Source: Fervidobacterium sp.
Lineage (GTDB): Bacteria > Thermotogota > Thermotogae > Thermotogales > Fervidobacteriaceae
NCBI GenBank assembly: GCA_026419195.1
Contig: JANZZV010000007.1
Coordinates: 29,078 to 93,077 of the forward strand
Direction: 5' to 3'
Length of the DNA stretch: 64,000 nt
Part shown: positions 9,733 to 58,604 of the stretch, piece after piece
How positions within the stretch are numbered: the stretch's first letter is position 1
Layout: every line of letters begins with the position of its first letter
Translations under genes and position numbers: made by a program
The notes under the pieces: generated by a model
What the model was told of the DNA's origin: nothing
Seen by the model: only the letters and a program-made list of their open reading frames with translations
The model's database searches: none

Positions 9733-10734
9733 CTAAGTTGATCTTATCACAATCTCTGGTTTGAGTACGTATTTTTTTACCTTTTCTTTAAGCTTGCCGT
9801 TTATTCTTTTCATAAGTAGCTCAGCTGCAAGTTTTCCCATTTCAAATATTGGTTGTTTAATAGTTGTTATTTCAAGTATTTGTGCAATGGGCAAGTCGTC
9901 AAATCCACATACTCTAACATCTGTTCCCACCTTTAGCCCCATCGTTCTTGCAACTTCGATGATGGGAACGGCTAAATAATCAGTCGTTGTAAATATTGCG
10001 CATCTTTTGTATCTTGAAAAAATACGTCTTGCAACTTCAAACGTACTTTCCCAATCAAGTGGGACATAATAAATTTTGTCTATATTCCTTCCTTTTCTTT
10101 CAAGTGATTCTTGAAACCCTTCAAGTCTTTCGTCAAAAACAGTGCTCTCAAGTTCATGTGCCTTTCGATGTGTTACAACAAATATATCCATGTCAAAATT
10201 TGAGAAATAATCACCGGCAATTACCCCACCATAGTAATTGTCCACTATCACAGAATCATACTTTTCAGAGTCTTGCTCAATGCAAACAACGGGAGTTTGA
10301 GGGCTTACAAGATTTGACAGTAACTTATCGACGCTAACACCGTCCACTATTATTCCGTCAGTAGATAACAATATGTCTGAAGATTTTCTTAATGCCTCGA
10401 ATTTCTTTTGATTGTATAGTGGATATAAAAAAGATGAATAACCATTTTTTATTAATACCTCATCGATAGCAGACATTAGTATTTGATAGAAATCACCTTT
10501 CATTTCTGGAGTAATCACTGTTACAAGGTTGCTTTCACCAGTAGAGAGCCGTCTTGCATGAGGATTTGGCGCATATCCAAGCTTTTTGATTGCGTCTAAA
10601 ACCTTTTGTTTTGTCATAGCATCAACGTGTGGGTTATTATTCAGAACTCTCGACACAGTTCCGACTCCAACACCGGCGTATTCAGCTACGTCTTTTATGG
10701 TAACTCTTTGAAATTTTTTCTTTAGCCTTGGCAT
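9733..10734 (-). CDS. LacI-family transcriptional regulator
   Basis: A 333-residue repressor-type protein. Residues 11-60 form the LacI helix-turn-helix and hinge (VTIKDVAEYAGVGVGTVSRV, then YAPNPHARRLSTGES), followed by a periplasmic-binding-protein-like ligand domain ending with TTIKQPIFEMGKLAAELL. These regulators normally control sugar use. Here the gene lies inside a housekeeping operon and overlaps the end of cinA by 13 bases, so its own targets are probably elsewhere. No LacI-type CG-centred operator was seen at its own promoter. Confidence 0.92.
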   Translation of the reverse strand: MPRLKKKFQRVTIKDVAEYAGVGVGTVSRVLNNNPHVDAMTKQKVLDAIKKLGYAPNPHARRLSTGESNLVTVITPEMKGDFYQILMSAIDEVLIKNGYSSFLYPLYNQKKFEALRKSSDILLSTDGIIVDGVSVDKLLSNLVSPQTPVVCIEQDSEKYDSVIVDNYYGGVIAGDYFSNFDMDIFVVTHRKAHELESTVFDERLEGFQESLERKGRNIDKIYYVPLDWESTFEVARRIFSRYKRCAIFTTTDYLAVPIIEVARTMGLKVGTDVRVCGFDDLPIAQILEITTIKQPIFEMGKLAAELLMKRINGKLKEKVKKYVLKPEIVIRST

Positions 10735-11948
10735 CTAAGAATCCCTCTCCTTAACATGTCTAAAGCTAACAAAGTTGTTCTTGCTCTAATCATTTGTCGA
10801 TCGCCGCGTAGATTGTATGTTTCAGATGCTAAGTCATTTTCCGAAGCAAAGGCGATACAAACAGTTCCCACTGGCTTTTCCCTTGTTCCGCCACTTGGAC
10901 CGGCAATACCCGAGACAGCTACTGCATAATCAACCTTGAATATATTTCTTGCATTCATTGCCATCTCTCTTACACATTCTTCACTAACAGCTCCATATTT
11001 ATTAATTGTTTCTTCTTTCACGCCAAGAAGTTTTATTTTCGATTCGTTTGAATAAGCTACTATAGTACCTTTATAAACGGAAGATATGCCAGGAACATCG
11101 ACAAGTGTTGAGGAGATCATTCCGCCTGTACATGACTCAGCAAAAGCTACCGTTTTTTGCTTTTCAAATAATAATTTGAAAATCACATCTTTCATTTCAT
11201 CATCGTCAGTAGCGTACACATAATGTCCGAGTATTGATACAAGTTTTTGGATTAAACCATCAATTTCACTTTTTAATTCAACAGAACCAGTAAGACGTAT
11301 TTCAACACCTCGTTCGTATGAAGCCATCGTAGCAACAGTAATATCTTTATTCGAATATATTATTTCTTTATAATCTTCCATTAGAACAGCTTCAGGGATA
11401 CCTATGGTTTTTATCCTCCTTGTGTAAAGTGCCTCTTCTGTCTTGATACTTTCAACTATGTTCTCAAAGATTGGTATTAACTCAACCGGTGGACCTGGTA
11501 GAAGTATAATTTTCTTATCTTCATATTCAATATACTGACCAGGAGCAGTCCCGACAGGATTATCAATTACCAAAGCACCTTCTATTACCATGGCTTGTTT
11601 CAAAACACTTTGTGGGGTCCTCTTATAATATTTCAACGCTTTTTCCATAATCTTCTCTGCTAATTTTTCGTTTTTCAGAAGTTTTCTATTAGTACAATAT
11701 GCAATAGCTTCACGTGTTAAATCGTCTTCTGTGGGTCCTAAACCACCAGTTGTAACAACTAAATCCGCTTCGTTTATCGCGCATGATATTCTATCGACTA
11801 TTATATCCAACCGATCTGGAACAGTTTCTGTACGGATTACATAATAACCAATATTCTTCAACTTTGAACTCAAGTATTTAGAATTTGTATCAACTATTAG
11901 ACCTTCAACCAATTCGTTTCCTATGGCAACAATAATAGCCCTTTTCAA
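10722..11948 (-). CDS. cinA: CinA-like competence/damage-inducible protein
   Basis: This 408-residue protein has an N-terminal molybdopterin-binding-like domain with GGLGPTEDDLT and a C-terminal CinA domain (about 250-408) with AESCTGGMIS and VSGIAGPSGGT. In the family the C-terminal part is an NMN deamidase and the N-terminal part an ADP-ribose pyrophosphatase. The start is TTG 11948, five bases after a GGGGGGA ribosome site. It is the first gene of a six-gene leftward operon, with an extended -10 promoter about 115 bases upstream. Confidence 0.93.
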   Translation of the reverse strand: MKRAIIVAIGNELVEGLIVDTNSKYLSSKLKNIGYYVIRTETVPDRLDIIVDRISCAINEADLVVTTGGLGPTEDDLTREAIAYCTNRKLLKNEKLAEKIMEKALKYYKRTPQSVLKQAMVIEGALVIDNPVGTAPGQYIEYEDKKIILLPGPPVELIPIFENIVESIKTEEALYTRRIKTIGIPEAVLMEDYKEIIYSNKDITVATMASYERGVEIRLTGSVELKSEIDGLIQKLVSILGHYVYATDDDEMKDVIFKLLFEKQKTVAFAESCTGGMISSTLVDVPGISSVYKGTIVAYSNESKIKLLGVKEETINKYGAVSEECVREMAMNARNIFKVDYAVAVSGIAGPSGGTREKPVGTVCIAFASENDLASETYNLRGDRQMIRARTTLLALDMLRRGILRCQG

Positions 11949-22453: not shown

Positions 22454-23317
22454 TTAACCAAGATTTTTCAGACCATTGTTTCTATAAGCAGTATGCACTT
22501 GGCTGTAATTTCCTTTCCTGAGATTTTCAATTAGATACTTTTTTAGTAGTTCCTGATTTTTAGTTTTTCTAAATCCATCAATAAGTATATTCAAATCTCC
22601 TTTCAAATAGTACATCATCTCATAGTATATCTGAACTCTGTCTGTCGTAAATTTAAGTTTGTTTAAAAGTAATTCTTTAAGTTGTTCTTCGATAACACCC
22701 TTAGGTATTCTTGTACGAAGATAGTTATAGATGTGCAAACATGATGTTATCGAATTATCCTGTTTCGTTTTTGAAATATTTGTCTCAAAGTAATTCTCAA
22801 TATCCTCCAAAGCCTGGCTGGCGTAAAGAGCTACGTCCATGTGTGGATCTTTCAATAATGCTCTTAAATAGTTCATGTTCTTTTCTATGTCTATTCCTTT
22901 AGTGACGTAGGTAACTATAGTCTTTGTGAGTAATTTTTTTTCAGATGGTCTGCCTATCAAAAGTAAAGTTTTTACCGGTAAAGCGTTCATTATTTCATCT
23001 TCTATCTTAACGGTAATTTCAGGTGGTATAGGAACGTTAAAGAAGTCCTCAATTTCCTGAGTTTTTGTCGGTATCAGCAAGAGCCAAGATAAAGGATACG
23101 AAAGAATGAAAATGATACTCTCTGGGATATTTTTTCTTGTTAAATAGTAAATAAAGGCTGATAAAAGGCATACCACAAAGTTTGGAATCCTTAGTCCCTG
23201 TAGGAACATCATAACAGTATTTATAATTATCAGAGCTGCGTTTAAGATGTCAACGAATATGTAAACAAAACTTTTCTTATCCTCCATAATGGATCTTTTA
23301 GCATGTTGATATTTCAT
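22454..23317 (-). CDS. pelE: PelE-like membrane protein of Pel polysaccharide export
   Basis: This 287-residue protein has two or three N-terminal membrane helices (about 17-95) and then a helical region (about 130-287) with repeated helix pairs such as LRALLKDPHMDVALYASQAL and LHIYNYLRTRIPKG, like the TPR part of PelE. Sequence alone would leave it unnamed; the call depends on its place directly after PelD and PelG-like genes, where PelE is expected. In known Pel systems PelE supports the PelD/PelF/PelG inner-membrane complex. It overlaps the end of pelD by 20 bases. Its length is near that of known PelE (about 330). Confidence 0.65.
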   Translation of the reverse strand: MKYQHAKRSIMEDKKSFVYIFVDILNAALIIINTVMMFLQGLRIPNFVVCLLSAFIYYLTRKNIPESIIFILSYPLSWLLLIPTKTQEIEDFFNVPIPPEITVKIEDEIMNALPVKTLLLIGRPSEKKLLTKTIVTYVTKGIDIEKNMNYLRALLKDPHMDVALYASQALEDIENYFETNISKTKQDNSITSCLHIYNYLRTRIPKGVIEEQLKELLLNKLKFTTDRVQIYYEMMYYLKGDLNILIDGFRKTKNQELLKKYLIENLRKGNYSQVHTAYRNNGLKNLG

Positions 23318-24539
23318 ACTTTTTAGTCAACCTCTCCAATACCTTCCTTTTTCCAAGTTCATCACACACGGGCAGTAAGGCCTTTGTTGTTACAAAATTA
23401 CCACTTTCTTCAGAATACAAAATATCTGAGCTTCTAAATTCTTTAACTATGTTTTCATGGTACACTCTCGGGTACTTAAAACAAATTTCTTTAAATTGTA
23501 TACCAAAGCGTTCTTTTCTCTTTTCAAAGATAGACTTCTTTTTTGTGTAATACTCTGCCTCCCAAGTACCATCTGGCTTTCTGTACTTTTCAACAAGCAA
23601 TGCTTCTTGTTCGCTTATTATTTTCATGTTGGCATGAAACCAAGATGCAATGGCTCTTATGTATTGCACAAGTATTTCTGAAAAATTCTCAGGTTGAATA
23701 TCCTCAACAACAAGAACACCTGATAAATCACCTTGTCTTCCAATCGCAACGCAGAACCAAGGTTCAAAAGAGTCAATTTCACTTTCCAATATGATTTCTG
23801 GAAGAGTACTATATCCTTTTTCGATGGCCTTTAAAATAACCTTAGATGTATCAACAGCCAACGAGTTTGGTAATTTACGAGTTCCGACACCGTTGACAAA
23901 TCGTAAGAAGTTTTTTTCTACACGATAGAGTTGAAGATTCGTAAGTTGAAAAAAGTCGGCAACTATTTCAACAAATCTTGTTAATATCTCATCTAAGTCA
24001 AGTACTTCAAGTTCTTTTAGACGTTCAAGTAGATTTATCAATCCTTCTCCTTCGAAAAAAACCCTTAACCGCAATTGATTAACAACTGATTGCAAATTAC
24101 TTAGGCTCTCTATTAAGTTGTGATTCTCAAGTTCTAACTTTTCATTTTCGTTTTTGATGGTTTTAATTTTTCTATTTAGGATTTCTCCTACTATTCCAAG
24201 CGCAAGTCCTACTGTTATTGTATAAATCGATAGTACGTTGGCGTCCAAGCCTAATTCTTTATTTCTGTAGAAGTAGGTAATTATGATTTGGAAAAGTGAT
24301 ACTGAAAAAAGGAAAGGTAACAGGCCGTATCTTGCCGACCAGATAAAAATGAAAGTCATGATAAGAATAGTTGACGTTATTGGTTCAATTACAGAAAATA
24401 TTTCAAGTATGATGATTATAAGAAATACAATCAGAAGTTCTACTATCTGCACACCGATGTGCTTTTTTACATTTGTAAAGGAAAACTTCATATAATTAAA
24501 AATAATTGAGAGTCTATCGAACAATTTGTTTGTTCTCAT
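23298..24539 (-). CDS. pelD: PelD-like c-di-GMP receptor of Pel polysaccharide export
   Basis: This 413-residue protein has four membrane helices (about 28-120), a coiled coil, a GAF-like domain (about 175-290) and a C-terminal degenerate GGDEF domain. In the last, RSSD (residues 369-372) is followed by five residues and then ESGNF where active diguanylate cyclases have GGDEF. The spacing is exactly that of the inhibitory c-di-GMP site (RxxD-x5-GGDEF), so it should bind but not make c-di-GMP, as PelD of Pseudomonas does. ATG 24539 is used; TTG 24545 is possible. It overlaps pelG by 26 bases and pelE by 20, so the three genes form one unit. Confidence 0.8.
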   Translation of the reverse strand: MRTNKLFDRLSIIFNYMKFSFTNVKKHIGVQIVELLIVFLIIIILEIFSVIEPITSTILIMTFIFIWSARYGLLPFLFSVSLFQIIITYFYRNKELGLDANVLSIYTITVGLALGIVGEILNRKIKTIKNENEKLELENHNLIESLSNLQSVVNQLRLRVFFEGEGLINLLERLKELEVLDLDEILTRFVEIVADFFQLTNLQLYRVEKNFLRFVNGVGTRKLPNSLAVDTSKVILKAIEKGYSTLPEIILESEIDSFEPWFCVAIGRQGDLSGVLVVEDIQPENFSEILVQYIRAIASWFHANMKIISEQEALLVEKYRKPDGTWEAEYYTKKKSIFEKRKERFGIQFKEICFKYPRVYHENIVKEFRSSDILYSEESGNFVTTKALLPVCDELGKRKVLERLTKKYEISTC

Positions 24540-25920
24540 GAACAATTAACTCCCTTCGCGCAATCAGAAGCTTACTTCTTGTAAACTCAAATCTTATAAG
24601 ATCTGAGTAAATTTTTCTGAAAGAAAGGAAAGCATAGATCGTTGAAAAACAAAAGCCGATTAGGAACCCGAGTCCAGGATAAATCCTTATAGTTAATATG
24701 GAAGTAATAATATTAATCGAGAAAGCCATTATCGCTCCTTTCATGGGTATATCGGGCAAATCAAAATAATGTGCTATGAGTGAGATATATAAAAATATAC
24801 CATTTAGAGCGGCACCAACGATACCAAATCTAAGAGTCTTTAATCCATATTCATCAAGTAATAATAAGTTAGCTAGTTTATCTGAAAGAATTAATCCAAC
24901 AAGCATAAATGAAAATTGAATCGATAGGACAGATTTTGTTGTTGAATGTAAAACATCATCAAGACCTGATTTAGCAAGTCGTATGAATTTGAATGTTCTG
25001 TTTTCTTCGATTGATCTGTAAAATAGTCTGTAGTGATTGTAAAAATCAGTTTCTAAGATCAGTACAAAAAGTGAGAGAGTTGGAATAATGAACAGGTAAG
25101 AAATAAACATCGGAATATCGTATTGTGGAGCGAAGACAAAACCTTTTGAAATTGAATATTTGAAATACGCCCACGCTATAAAATCATCAACCCAAGCTGC
25201 CAAATATGTGAAAATCCCCGCTATTGTTTGTATTTTATACTTTTTTATTGCTTCAATAAATAAATCGGTTCCTGATCTATGTTCATTCTTAGTGTATAGA
25301 TGACTCTTTATAACAGTCTGTAATAACACCATGATCGTCATTAGACCCAAGTTGAAACCAAAGTAAGCATAGTATTCTCCAAAGGTTTTAAAGAGAATTA
25401 ACGTAAATATAAGACTAATTGAACCTCCGATGAGGAAAGTGCTGACAACTGGAAAAAATTTTCTGATGGACGATATGAAAACTATCTGCACCCATATTAC
25501 GGTTAATACTGTTAGAGAATAAGAGAAAAGTCCTATCTTGACAACATCAAAAATGCGATTCGTTGTGAAGAAAATAACCAAAAAAACAGCTGAAGACAAA
25601 AGAGCATAGTTTACACTAGATATATAGAGTTGATATATCTTTTGAAAATCTTTTTTATATATCAGATCTGAAAGATAACGTGTTACGGAAGTTGAAACAC
25701 TACCAAATAATATGGTGGAGAATATAAATGTGTATATTATGCCGGAAATAAGAAACGGAATTTTTTCTTGTGGAATAAGCAATTGTATTAGAAATACCGT
25801 GATTGAAGATATAATCCACGGGCCAGCTGAAATGTTAGCCGAATAAAAAAATGCAAATATATCCGAAAAAAAGGAATTTCTTCTCAGTAATTTATTAAGT
25901 TCGAAACCTATACCAGCCAC
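24514..25920 (-). CDS. pelG: PelG-like polysaccharide export membrane protein
   Basis: A 468-residue protein with about 12 membrane helices, starting MAGIGFELNKLLRRNSFFSD, which is the characteristic PelG beginning. FYSANISAGPWIISS near residue 26 and YLAAWVDDFIAWAYF in the middle also match. PelG is a flippase-like protein of the polysaccharide transporter superfamily that moves Pel polymer across the inner membrane with PelD, PelE and the glycosyltransferase PelF. The start is GTG 25920 with a weak GGTGAT site. No pelF, pelA, pelB or pelC lies nearby, so the operon is incomplete at this locus. Confidence 0.87.
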   Translation of the reverse strand: MAGIGFELNKLLRRNSFFSDIFAFFYSANISAGPWIISSITVFLIQLLIPQEKIPFLISGIIYTFIFSTILFGSVSTSVTRYLSDLIYKKDFQKIYQLYISSVNYALLSSAVFLVIFFTTNRIFDVVKIGLFSYSLTVLTVIWVQIVFISSIRKFFPVVSTFLIGGSISLIFTLILFKTFGEYYAYFGFNLGLMTIMVLLQTVIKSHLYTKNEHRSGTDLFIEAIKKYKIQTIAGIFTYLAAWVDDFIAWAYFKYSISKGFVFAPQYDIPMFISYLFIIPTLSLFVLILETDFYNHYRLFYRSIEENRTFKFIRLAKSGLDDVLHSTTKSVLSIQFSFMLVGLILSDKLANLLLLDEYGLKTLRFGIVGAALNGIFLYISLIAHYFDLPDIPMKGAIMAFSINIITSILTIRIYPGLGFLIGFCFSTIYAFLSFRKIYSDLIRFEFTRSKLLIARRELIVHENKQIVR

Positions 25921-25984: not shown

Positions 25985-25993
25985 ATTATAACA
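25985..25993 (-). promoter_or_regulatory. Extended -10 promoter for pelGDE
   Basis: The minus strand reads TGTTATAAT, an extended -10, ending about 65 bases before the pelG start. It lies just downstream of the terminator hairpin described next, so pelG can be transcribed independently of that hairpin. Confidence 0.6.
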
Positions 25994-26004: not shown

Positions 26005-26038
26005 AAAAACAAAAAATCCCCCGGACGTTTTCCGGGGG
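26005..26038 (-). terminator. Terminator upstream of pelG
   Basis: An 8-bp stem CCCCCGGA/TCCGGGGG (26018-26025 with 26031-26038) is followed on the minus strand by ATTTTTTGTTTTT, an excellent U-tract. On the plus strand there is no U-tract. No gene on this strand lies upstream of it before the divergent rnfB-like gene. Confidence 0.85.
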
Positions 26039-26089
26039 TACTTGAAAAAGTTTCTCAACTCTTCCAAGGGGGGATAGGGGGGTCGCTGC
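26011..26089 (-). ncRNA. Candidate small RNA or attenuated pel leader
   Basis: A strong minus-strand promoter should start an RNA near 26089 that ends at the hairpin, about 75-80 bases. It begins with two runs of six C (26077-26082 and 26068-26073). Either run could pair with the GGGGG arm of the terminator and prevent it from forming. This fits either a free small RNA or an attenuator in front of pelGDE. There is no open frame of note inside it. Confidence 0.4.
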
Positions 26090-26095
26090 AGTACA

Positions 26096-26124
26096 TTTAT
26101 ACATGTAATTATGTAAATTTTCAA
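26096..26124 (-). promoter_or_regulatory. Strong promoter reading toward pelG
   Basis: On the minus strand TTGAAA (26119-26124) and TATAAA (26096-26101) are exactly 17 bases apart. It drives the C-rich RNA that ends at the hairpin upstream of pelG. Confidence 0.75.
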
Positions 26125-50852: not shown

Positions 50853-51221
50853 TTACCTGCTGTTGTTCATTCTAAAGTAATCAAGATTTTCGTCATGCTC
50901 TATCTTTTTGTATCTGTGCAATGCACTTTCGTACATGCGATTTATGATGGCTTTTAAATCACTACTTTTTCCTAGATCATCTATTAATTTTTGAAGTTCT
51001 CCGGTAAATTCAAATTTGAACTCTTTGTCTTCGAATTTTATGTACTCCACTAATGACAAAGAAACTTCTGGAACTATCCTTTTCAAAAGCTTTATCAAAA
51101 ATTCTGAAAACACATCACGAACATCGCTTTTACGTTTTGCATCGGAAAGTTTTTCTCTGTACTCATTTTCAAGTTCACGTTCGTATTTTACGTAACTCAC
51201 CATCTTTTCAGCTCTTTCCAT
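50853..51221 (-). CDS. Hypothetical small charged protein
   Basis: This 122-residue protein is helical and highly charged, starting MERAEKMVSYVKYERELENEYR. I recognise no domain. ATG 51221 is chosen because AAGGGGGGA lies just upstream; a longer frame to 51293 lacks a ribosome site. It follows lgt by about 80 bases and is the last gene before the C-rich terminator. Confidence 0.72.
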   Translation of the reverse strand: MERAEKMVSYVKYERELENEYREKLSDAKRKSDVRDVFSEFLIKLLKRIVPEVSLSLVEYIKFEDKEFKFEFTGELQKLIDDLGKSSDLKAIINRMYESALHRYKKIEHDENLDYFRMNNSR

Positions 51222-57296: not shown

Positions 57297-58604
57297 TTAT
57301 AATTTCTCCATAATTTCACCAAGTGTTTCACCGTTCCACTCGACTATAGAACATTCAAATTCGAGTTTGAGGTTATCAAAATTTACTAAAATTTCTTTTA
57401 TCTTTTCTATGCTCTCTTGTTTTTGAAGTTCTGCTCTTTGTTTATTCGAACCAAGCAAAATGCATACAAATTGGTCTGAGCTTAGTCTTGCTGATAAATC
57501 TGGTACCTTTTTACTAAAATAATTTCCGATTTCCCTTAGCAAACGATTTGTGAACATTTCACCATGTGCTGCGCTTATATCTTTTAGATTCTTCAATTTT
57601 ACCTTTGCAAAAGTCAACGGTATGTTATTCCGCTTAGCAAAATCTAAAGCATACATTACCTTTGCTCTGAAAGCGGTTTCGTTGTAAAGCCCCGTTACTT
57701 CGTCAATTTCTTTACCAGCGGAAAGATTTTTATAATCGTTCAACAGCGTGAAAAGTACGCCAAGCGGTGTGTTTATCATCGAGAGTATTTGTTGCGTTAC
57801 CTCGATAATATGCGGCTCTTCTATGATTATGAAACCTACGGGGGCATCTTTTTGGTAGATTATTTCTATCATGAATTTATCCGAAAGCTTTCGCTTGCCA
57901 TCAAAATAAGTTTCAACATGCGAATAATATTTTACCCCAGTGAAATTTGAGACAACTGAATAGACCTCTTCTGGAGCAGCTGGTTCCTTTGAGAAGCTGT
58001 ATAGTCTTAGCTCTGAAAGCACGGAAACTCCAATGTATAAACTTTTGTATTCAAACAATTCGCTGAATAGTTCATGAAGTTTTCTTAGTACAAGTTCCTC
58101 ATCGTAAATAAATTCAGAATAACTTATGATCTCACGAACTAAAGTTGATTCCTTCAAACTTTCTTCTATTATATCCACGAGCTCACCATACGGTTCGAGA
58201 TGAATCTTATATATTTCTCTCGACCACTCAATATTAAATGGTTGGTTTATAAAGTTCAATATCGTTCTTTCTATTTCGTCTTGTGGAGCAGTTTTCTTTA
58301 AAAACAAGTCAACTCCGCTCTTTTTTGCCCAGAAAGGATTCACAGTCTCTTCTGCACCAGTTAGCATAAGTACTCCGACATTTCGAGCAGCTCTGTAGCT
58401 TCTTATAAACCTTGTGAAGTGTATACCATTCAACTTTGGCATTACATAGTCAACTATAACAATATCTGGCAAAAACGAAAAAAATTTGTTTATTCCATCA
58501 AGACCGTCTTTGGCTACTTCTACACTGTGGCCTTTAGCTTCTATAAAGTTTTGGAGAAAATTCCGCCATACGGTTGAATCATCTATTACAAGTACTTTTT
58601 TCAT
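57297..58604 (-). CDS. Response regulator with degenerate GGDEF domain
   Basis: A 435-residue protein. Residues 1-120 are a full receiver domain with the acidic pair DD (8-9), phosphoacceptor Asp52 in VDYVMP, Thr82 and Lys103. A middle region (about 150-285) resembles a GAF or PAS sensor. The C-terminal part starts IDEVTGLYNETAF like a GGDEF domain, but where the catalytic GGDEF should be it reads SSDQF (375-379), and no RxxD I-site lies upstream. It should neither make nor bind c-di-GMP in the usual way. It is the likely phosphorylation target of the CheA encoded two genes upstream. Confidence 0.87.
   Translation of the reverse strand: MKKVLVIDDSTVWRNFLQNFIEAKGHSVEVAKDGLDGINKFFSFLPDIVIVDYVMPKLNGIHFTRFIRSYRAARNVGVLMLTGAEETVNPFWAKKSGVDLFLKKTAPQDEIERTILNFINQPFNIEWSREIYKIHLEPYGELVDIIEESLKESTLVREIISYSEFIYDEELVLRKLHELFSELFEYKSLYIGVSVLSELRLYSFSKEPAAPEEVYSVVSNFTGVKYYSHVETYFDGKRKLSDKFMIEIIYQKDAPVGFIIIEEPHIIEVTQQILSMINTPLGVLFTLLNDYKNLSAGKEIDEVTGLYNETAFRAKVMYALDFAKRNNIPLTFAKVKLKNLKDISAAHGEMFTNRLLREIGNYFSKKVPDLSARLSSDQFVCILLGSNKQRAELQKQESIEKIKEILVNFDNLKLEFECSIVEWNGETLGEIMEKL

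Follow-up and report, generated by a model that had tools for sequence, protein, structure and literature searches.

C-rich motifs aimed at Shine-Dalgarno (SD) regions occur in the RoxS/RsaE and LhrC RNAs of Firmicutes, and a C/U-rich element of the Helicobacter RNA RepG is said to target a homopolymeric G-run, with few targets reported. Regulatory small RNAs (sRNAs) usually evolve fast and cannot be recognised beyond a genus or family. To our knowledge, almost nothing is known about sRNA regulation in Thermotogota. C-rich unpaired regions of IsrR in Staphylococcus and FsrA in Bacillus have been reported to pair at SD sites (PMC9410917), and anti-SD pairing of such regions has been proposed for the cuckoo RNAs (PMC10746234). 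For Thermotogota, a T. maritima transcriptome paper reports 13 putative ncRNAs.

How does the present locus compare with these RNAs? On the minus strand of the window, the whole 64,000-nucleotide stretch of Fervidobacterium DNA analysed here, the original prediction had described a promoter, two C6 runs and a strong terminator with no gene in between, and all of these are found where it placed them (Table 1). The second promoter that it suggested past the hairpin corresponds to a TATAAT, for which such a role is possible. It had passed over two features, a near-invariant 28-nt block and a 28-nt hairpin that follows the C-runs and precedes the terminator. The sequence GCAGCGA lies between the -10 TATAAA and the first C6 tract, and the terminator stem-loop (26038-26018) has eight pairs, seven of them G-C, followed by ATTTTTTG. 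Judged from these elements, a transcript of about 80 nt would run along the minus strand from about 26089, the probable 5' end, to about 26010. Its predicted fold is better than that of shuffled sequences (z -3.4); the C-runs are almost free in the minimum-energy fold, and the C-core is mostly unpaired, with predicted means of 0.71-0.73 at 37 C and 0.78-0.89 at 65 C. Scans with consensus patterns returned chance numbers, both for promoters (7 promoter-like sites versus 8.1 expected, the promoter of the locus not being among them) and for terminators (1 versus 1.0 expected), and the case therefore rests on conservation. The divergent gene on the other side of the locus encodes an RnfB-type Fe-S domain (PF04060). 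The two genes behind pelG (window 22454-24545), named pelD and pelE in the original prediction, have no Pfam match at E 0.001.

Table 1. Positions of the putative sRNA gene, its neighbour and candidate target genes in the window.
Feature	Position	Strand	Remarks
Putative sigma-70-type promoter TTGAAA-17-TATAAA	26096..26124	-	predicted from sequence and conservation
-35 TTGAAA	26124-26119	-	
17-bp spacer	26118-26102	-	TTTACA/TNTAACA box at its start, recurring in relatives
-10 TATAAA	26101-26096	-	
Near-invariant core GCAGCGACCCCCCTATCCCCCCTTGGAA of type A sRNA, probable seed	26062..26089	-	few or no changes in most type A copies of Fervidobacteriaceae and the Pseudothermotoga family
First C6 tract	26077..26082	-	
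Second C6 tract	26068..26073	-	UAU separates both C6 tracts
First hairpin, 28 nt, CUUGGAAGAGUU-GAGA-AACUUUUUCAAG	26041..26068	-	position kept, sequence differs in many relatives
Intrinsic terminator, probable sRNA 3' end	26010..26038	-	stem sequence differs in relatives
TATAAT, possible separate pelG promoter	25985..25990	-	consensus match only
pelG, neighbour outside the RNA gene	24514..25920	-	PF16933, E 7e-104
Response-regulator-like gene, SD cggggggatactatATG	57297..58604	-	candidate target; complementarity only
Small conserved gene, SD taaggggggattgtATG	50853..51221	-	candidate target; orthologue in G005 also has G6
CinA-like gene, SD gcggggggattttcTTG	10722..11948	-	candidate target; complementarity only

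Queried with the 350-base intergenic region, 33 of 61 relatives gave matches. Within the genus the alignment extends over about 150 bases at 77-85% identity, while in other families little is left beyond a core of 26-28 nt, which is 91-100% identical in the copies that we call type A. The 28-nt core GCAGCGACCCCCCUAUCCCCCCUUGGAA recurs with almost no letter changed in other Thermotogota, as a rule in a single copy per genome and with a terminator. The copies inspected have the core, a hairpin or short stem, and a terminator-type hairpin, the sequences of which differ. An exact 18-mer of the core, searched in 84,980 species genomes, was found in Thermotogota only, apart from one cyanobacterial and one clostridial match, both of which lack this context and are due to chance; a 17-mer match in a viral contig was likewise dismissed as chance. 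The core has no match in Rfam 15 at gathering score, either at the locus itself or at the loci of eight relatives, and its sequence was not found in the literature searched.

Most genomes also carry a second locus, type B, with the consensus C5-UAU-C5-UUGAGAUACACCCCCCACGG followed by a terminator (also written C5-UAU-C5-UUGAGAUACACCCCCCACGGCUUU); the core is common to both types, and other orders carry B with the same core. When searched as a 14-mer with no more than one mismatch, the core shared by A and B was found in 88 of 103 Thermotogota genomes. Only B was found in the Thermotoga-like genomes of family f3, whose genus g7 is probably Thermotoga itself, and a search for a divergent copy in the f3 genomes lacking the core found none. 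In Thermotogales the 5' 40 nt of B hardly vary, while the terminator stem is wholly changed yet still paired. UAUC is often paired with GAUA on either side, which places the C-tract in a loop, as in GGAUA-C6-UAUCC and CUAUCC-CCCCUU-GGAUAG. The B copy of the window's own genome (L071) lies at G000:C1:302838-302856, on that contig's minus strand; this locus has three C-tracts and a terminator, and adjoins an mnmE-like gene. In promoters of type A and B copies a TNTAACA box recurs directly after the -35 (for example at loci L021, L014 and L049). The region from -35 to -10 also contains a dyad in several genera, either TAACA-N7-TGTTA, seen in Thermosipho, or GATACA-N7-TGTTATC. The dyad is possibly the operator of a regulator; Fervidobacterium and type B deviate from box and dyad, so no factor is named.

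Is this a gene in its own right or the leader of the gene behind it? The next genes include pelG, dnaB-like, mnmE-like, miaB-like and S4-domain genes (names other than pelG being our reading of the sequences), in either orientation and often convergent. The flanking genes thus vary by lineage and the next gene is often on the opposite strand; therefore, we regard type A as a free-standing sRNA gene, a conclusion that we hold with high confidence. The promoter, C-runs and terminator are kept phylum-wide whatever the neighbouring gene, in line with the small RNA that the original prediction had offered as one of two readings, and the C-runs, whose lack of conservation in relatives was to count against it, turned out to be conserved. 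As in trans-acting C-rich anti-SD sRNAs, the locus appears to have its own promoter and intrinsic terminator, independent of its neighbours, and a conserved, accessible C-rich seed. The other reading, a cis-acting attenuator or riboswitch for pelGDE in which the C-runs compete for the G5 arm of the terminator, draws on the position of the locus, which lies some 100 nt in front of pelG and is read in the same direction, and on the ability of a C-run to pair with the G5 arm. However, in other genera the same core precedes unrelated or oppositely oriented genes, and its terminators lack G5 (stems such as GGAUCC, GGGUCUC and AGGAGCC occur beside unchanged C-runs), so the proposed antiterminator is not conserved. 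Moreover, a -10-like site of pelG's own follows the terminator, and no Rfam riboswitch model matches, including GEMM-I and GEMM-II, in agreement with the original view that this is not a c-di-GMP riboswitch. A constant controlled gene together with a conserved terminator/antiterminator pair, as an attenuator would have, is not what was found. Context thus largely refutes the cis-acting reading, which we regard as very improbable. A short polyproline leader peptide (DPPIPPW or RPPYPPL) acting by ribosome stalling appears more improbable still. Both the window and the Pseudothermotoga family do have a short frame, D-P-P-I-P-P-W, that passes through the C-runs, but no start codon or Shine-Dalgarno sequence is conserved in the few nucleotides between promoter and core, and the C-runs differ in length between species (6/6, 5/6 or 6/7 in type A), which breaks any reading frame; coding is therefore not conserved, and the peptide is rejected.

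What might such an RNA do? We propose that A and B represent two related C-rich sRNA families across Thermotogota, transcribed in response to some presumed inducing signal. Each transcript would expose a mostly unpaired C5-6-UAU-C5-6 core. In this genus a hairpin comes next, and the RNA would end at the intrinsic terminator, whose U-rich tail would be suitable for Hfq. The C-tracts would pair in trans with the G5-G6 Shine-Dalgarno sequences of a set of mRNAs, hfq mRNA being among the candidates, and ribosome binding would be blocked. Sites of this kind were counted in G005, a genome of the window's genus (1.95 Mb of joined stretches, genes called with a simple script). GGGGGG lies within 25 nt of the start in 57 of its 1,759 genes, and SD G-runs of length 4, 5, 6 and 7 number 153, 97, 53 and 4, with a sharp drop after 6. 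Using 296 reciprocal-best pairs between G005 and 400 kb of G015, which belongs to the same family but to a Thermosipho-like genus, we found that the G6 SD is conserved in the same genes: 7 pairs share it, 5 have it on one side and 5 on the other, and 279 have it on neither (OR 78, p 1.6e-8). Where upstream genes are at least 18 nt away, the counts are 3/0/0/88 (p 8e-6), and exact G4 is also conserved in that set. Between genera, GAGGG, GGGAG and AGAGG SDs, which are variants of similar frequency, show no such conservation (OR about 1-1.5), and GGAGG gives an OR of 4.4. G6 SD sites are equally numerous in genomes without detectable A or B (for example g12, g14 and g8 of family f3); their occurrence is thus independent of the RNA, which is a real weakness of the target model. 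AAGGGGGGATA..ATG sites are also present in genomes of this kind, and the ATA flank that follows G-runs is also common after GAGGG. A control with the reversed core gave nearly as many short complements. In nearly all of the 103 Thermotogota genomes, GGGGGG is in excess at 4-7 nt before ATG relative to a reversed-pattern control, so the G6 Shine-Dalgarno looks like a phylum trait.

Candidate targets in the window are listed in Table 1; the best predicted sites, AAGGGGGGAUAG, are fully complementary to CUAUCCCCCCUU over 12 nt. In G101, a Rho-N-like gene that follows a type B-like copy at a distance of 0.2 kb is preceded by AAGGGGGGAUAGGG, and such perfect sites fit the core over 12-14 nt. At L264, L265 and L114 (G101 and G102), the SD of the Rho-N-like gene, AAGGGGGGATAGGG, could pair with 14 nt of the RNA core, and orthologues of this protein in G005 and G015 have G6 SDs. 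The start of a prepilin-like gene of G005 (G005:C1:101460-101975) is preceded by TGTATCTCAAGGGG, which is perfectly complementary to type B over 14 nt. A G6 stands just upstream of the hfq start in G005 and in G034, a genome of another family. Of 30 genomes searched for Hfq, 29 have it. The candidates have no clear functional theme. N-terminal hydrophobic segments are found in 35% of G6 genes versus 23% overall in G005 (p 0.03); this envelope-protein theme is absent in G015 and so is not claimed. A full-length antisense target was also sought: the 14-nt core pattern with at most one mismatch has two matches in the window's genome, both of them the sRNAs, so there is no second locus with the full complement on its transcript.

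Because G6 abundance is independent of A and B and the reversed core has nearly as many complements, we hold the sRNA gene far more firmly than its pairing: that it acts in trans, with its C-tracts pairing to G6 SDs, we consider reasonably probable. Could the invariant C-tract of a stand-alone sRNA instead bind, and so sponge up or titrate, a protein (Hfq, a KH or cold-shock protein, or Rho)? A core that is all but invariant throughout a phylum and the existence of two paralogous RNAs fit a protein ligand, as does a G6 SD abundance that does not follow the presence of the RNA. However, the invariance, UAU included, is stricter than known C-rich protein sites generally require, and the G6 sites are conserved in the same genes across genera; we consider a protein sponge unlikely. 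It is quite unlikely that the RNA serves a few, different mRNA targets while G6 SDs are kept for unrelated translational reasons. Such an RNA would agree with the occurrence of G6 SDs where neither A nor B is detected and with conservation of other G-run SDs (G4, GGAGG) between genera, but not with the very strong gene-specific conservation of G6 or with the sharp cut-off at length 6, equal to the length of the C6 tract. Beyond the trans-acting pairing that we favour, A, B and Hfq might together form a global translation regulator that reads a dedicated G6 SD code, preserved in individual genes throughout Thermotogota, and hfq as a member of the regulon would close a feedback loop; this extension is speculative and, on balance, doubtful.

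IsrR and FsrA resemble the Thermotogota RNA as small trans-acting RNAs with single-stranded C-rich regions. Both are Fur-controlled and have Fe-S enzyme targets, and the Thermotogota RNA differs in having its two C-tracts in one rigid C5-6-UAU-C5-6 block kept over a phylum. RoxS/RsaE and LhrC are alike in the aim of their C-rich motifs, but belong to another phylum, have another architecture and yield no Rfam match. Unlike the Thermotogota RNA, RepG is not known to be phylum-wide. Among the IsrR, FsrA, RsaE/RoxS and alpha-r14 families, those with an Rfam covariance model have no match at the locus or at the loci of eight relatives. The alpha-r14 'cuckoo' sRNAs (NfeR1, Rhizobiales) share an ultraconserved, unpaired pyrimidine anti-SD motif amid diverging stems (PMC10746234). 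Their motif is CCUCCUCCC in three hairpins, an arrangement not found at the window locus, whereas the Thermotogota RNA has CCCCCCUAUCCCCCC, which fits G6 and not GGAGG. If true, a near-invariant core in two copies across a phylum of thermophiles would make this an unusually old sRNA, and it gives a testable link between C-tracts and G6 ribosome-binding sites where pairing must hold at 60-80 C. As a mechanism, it would join the C-rich anti-SD sRNAs, its phylum-wide depth being the unusual feature.
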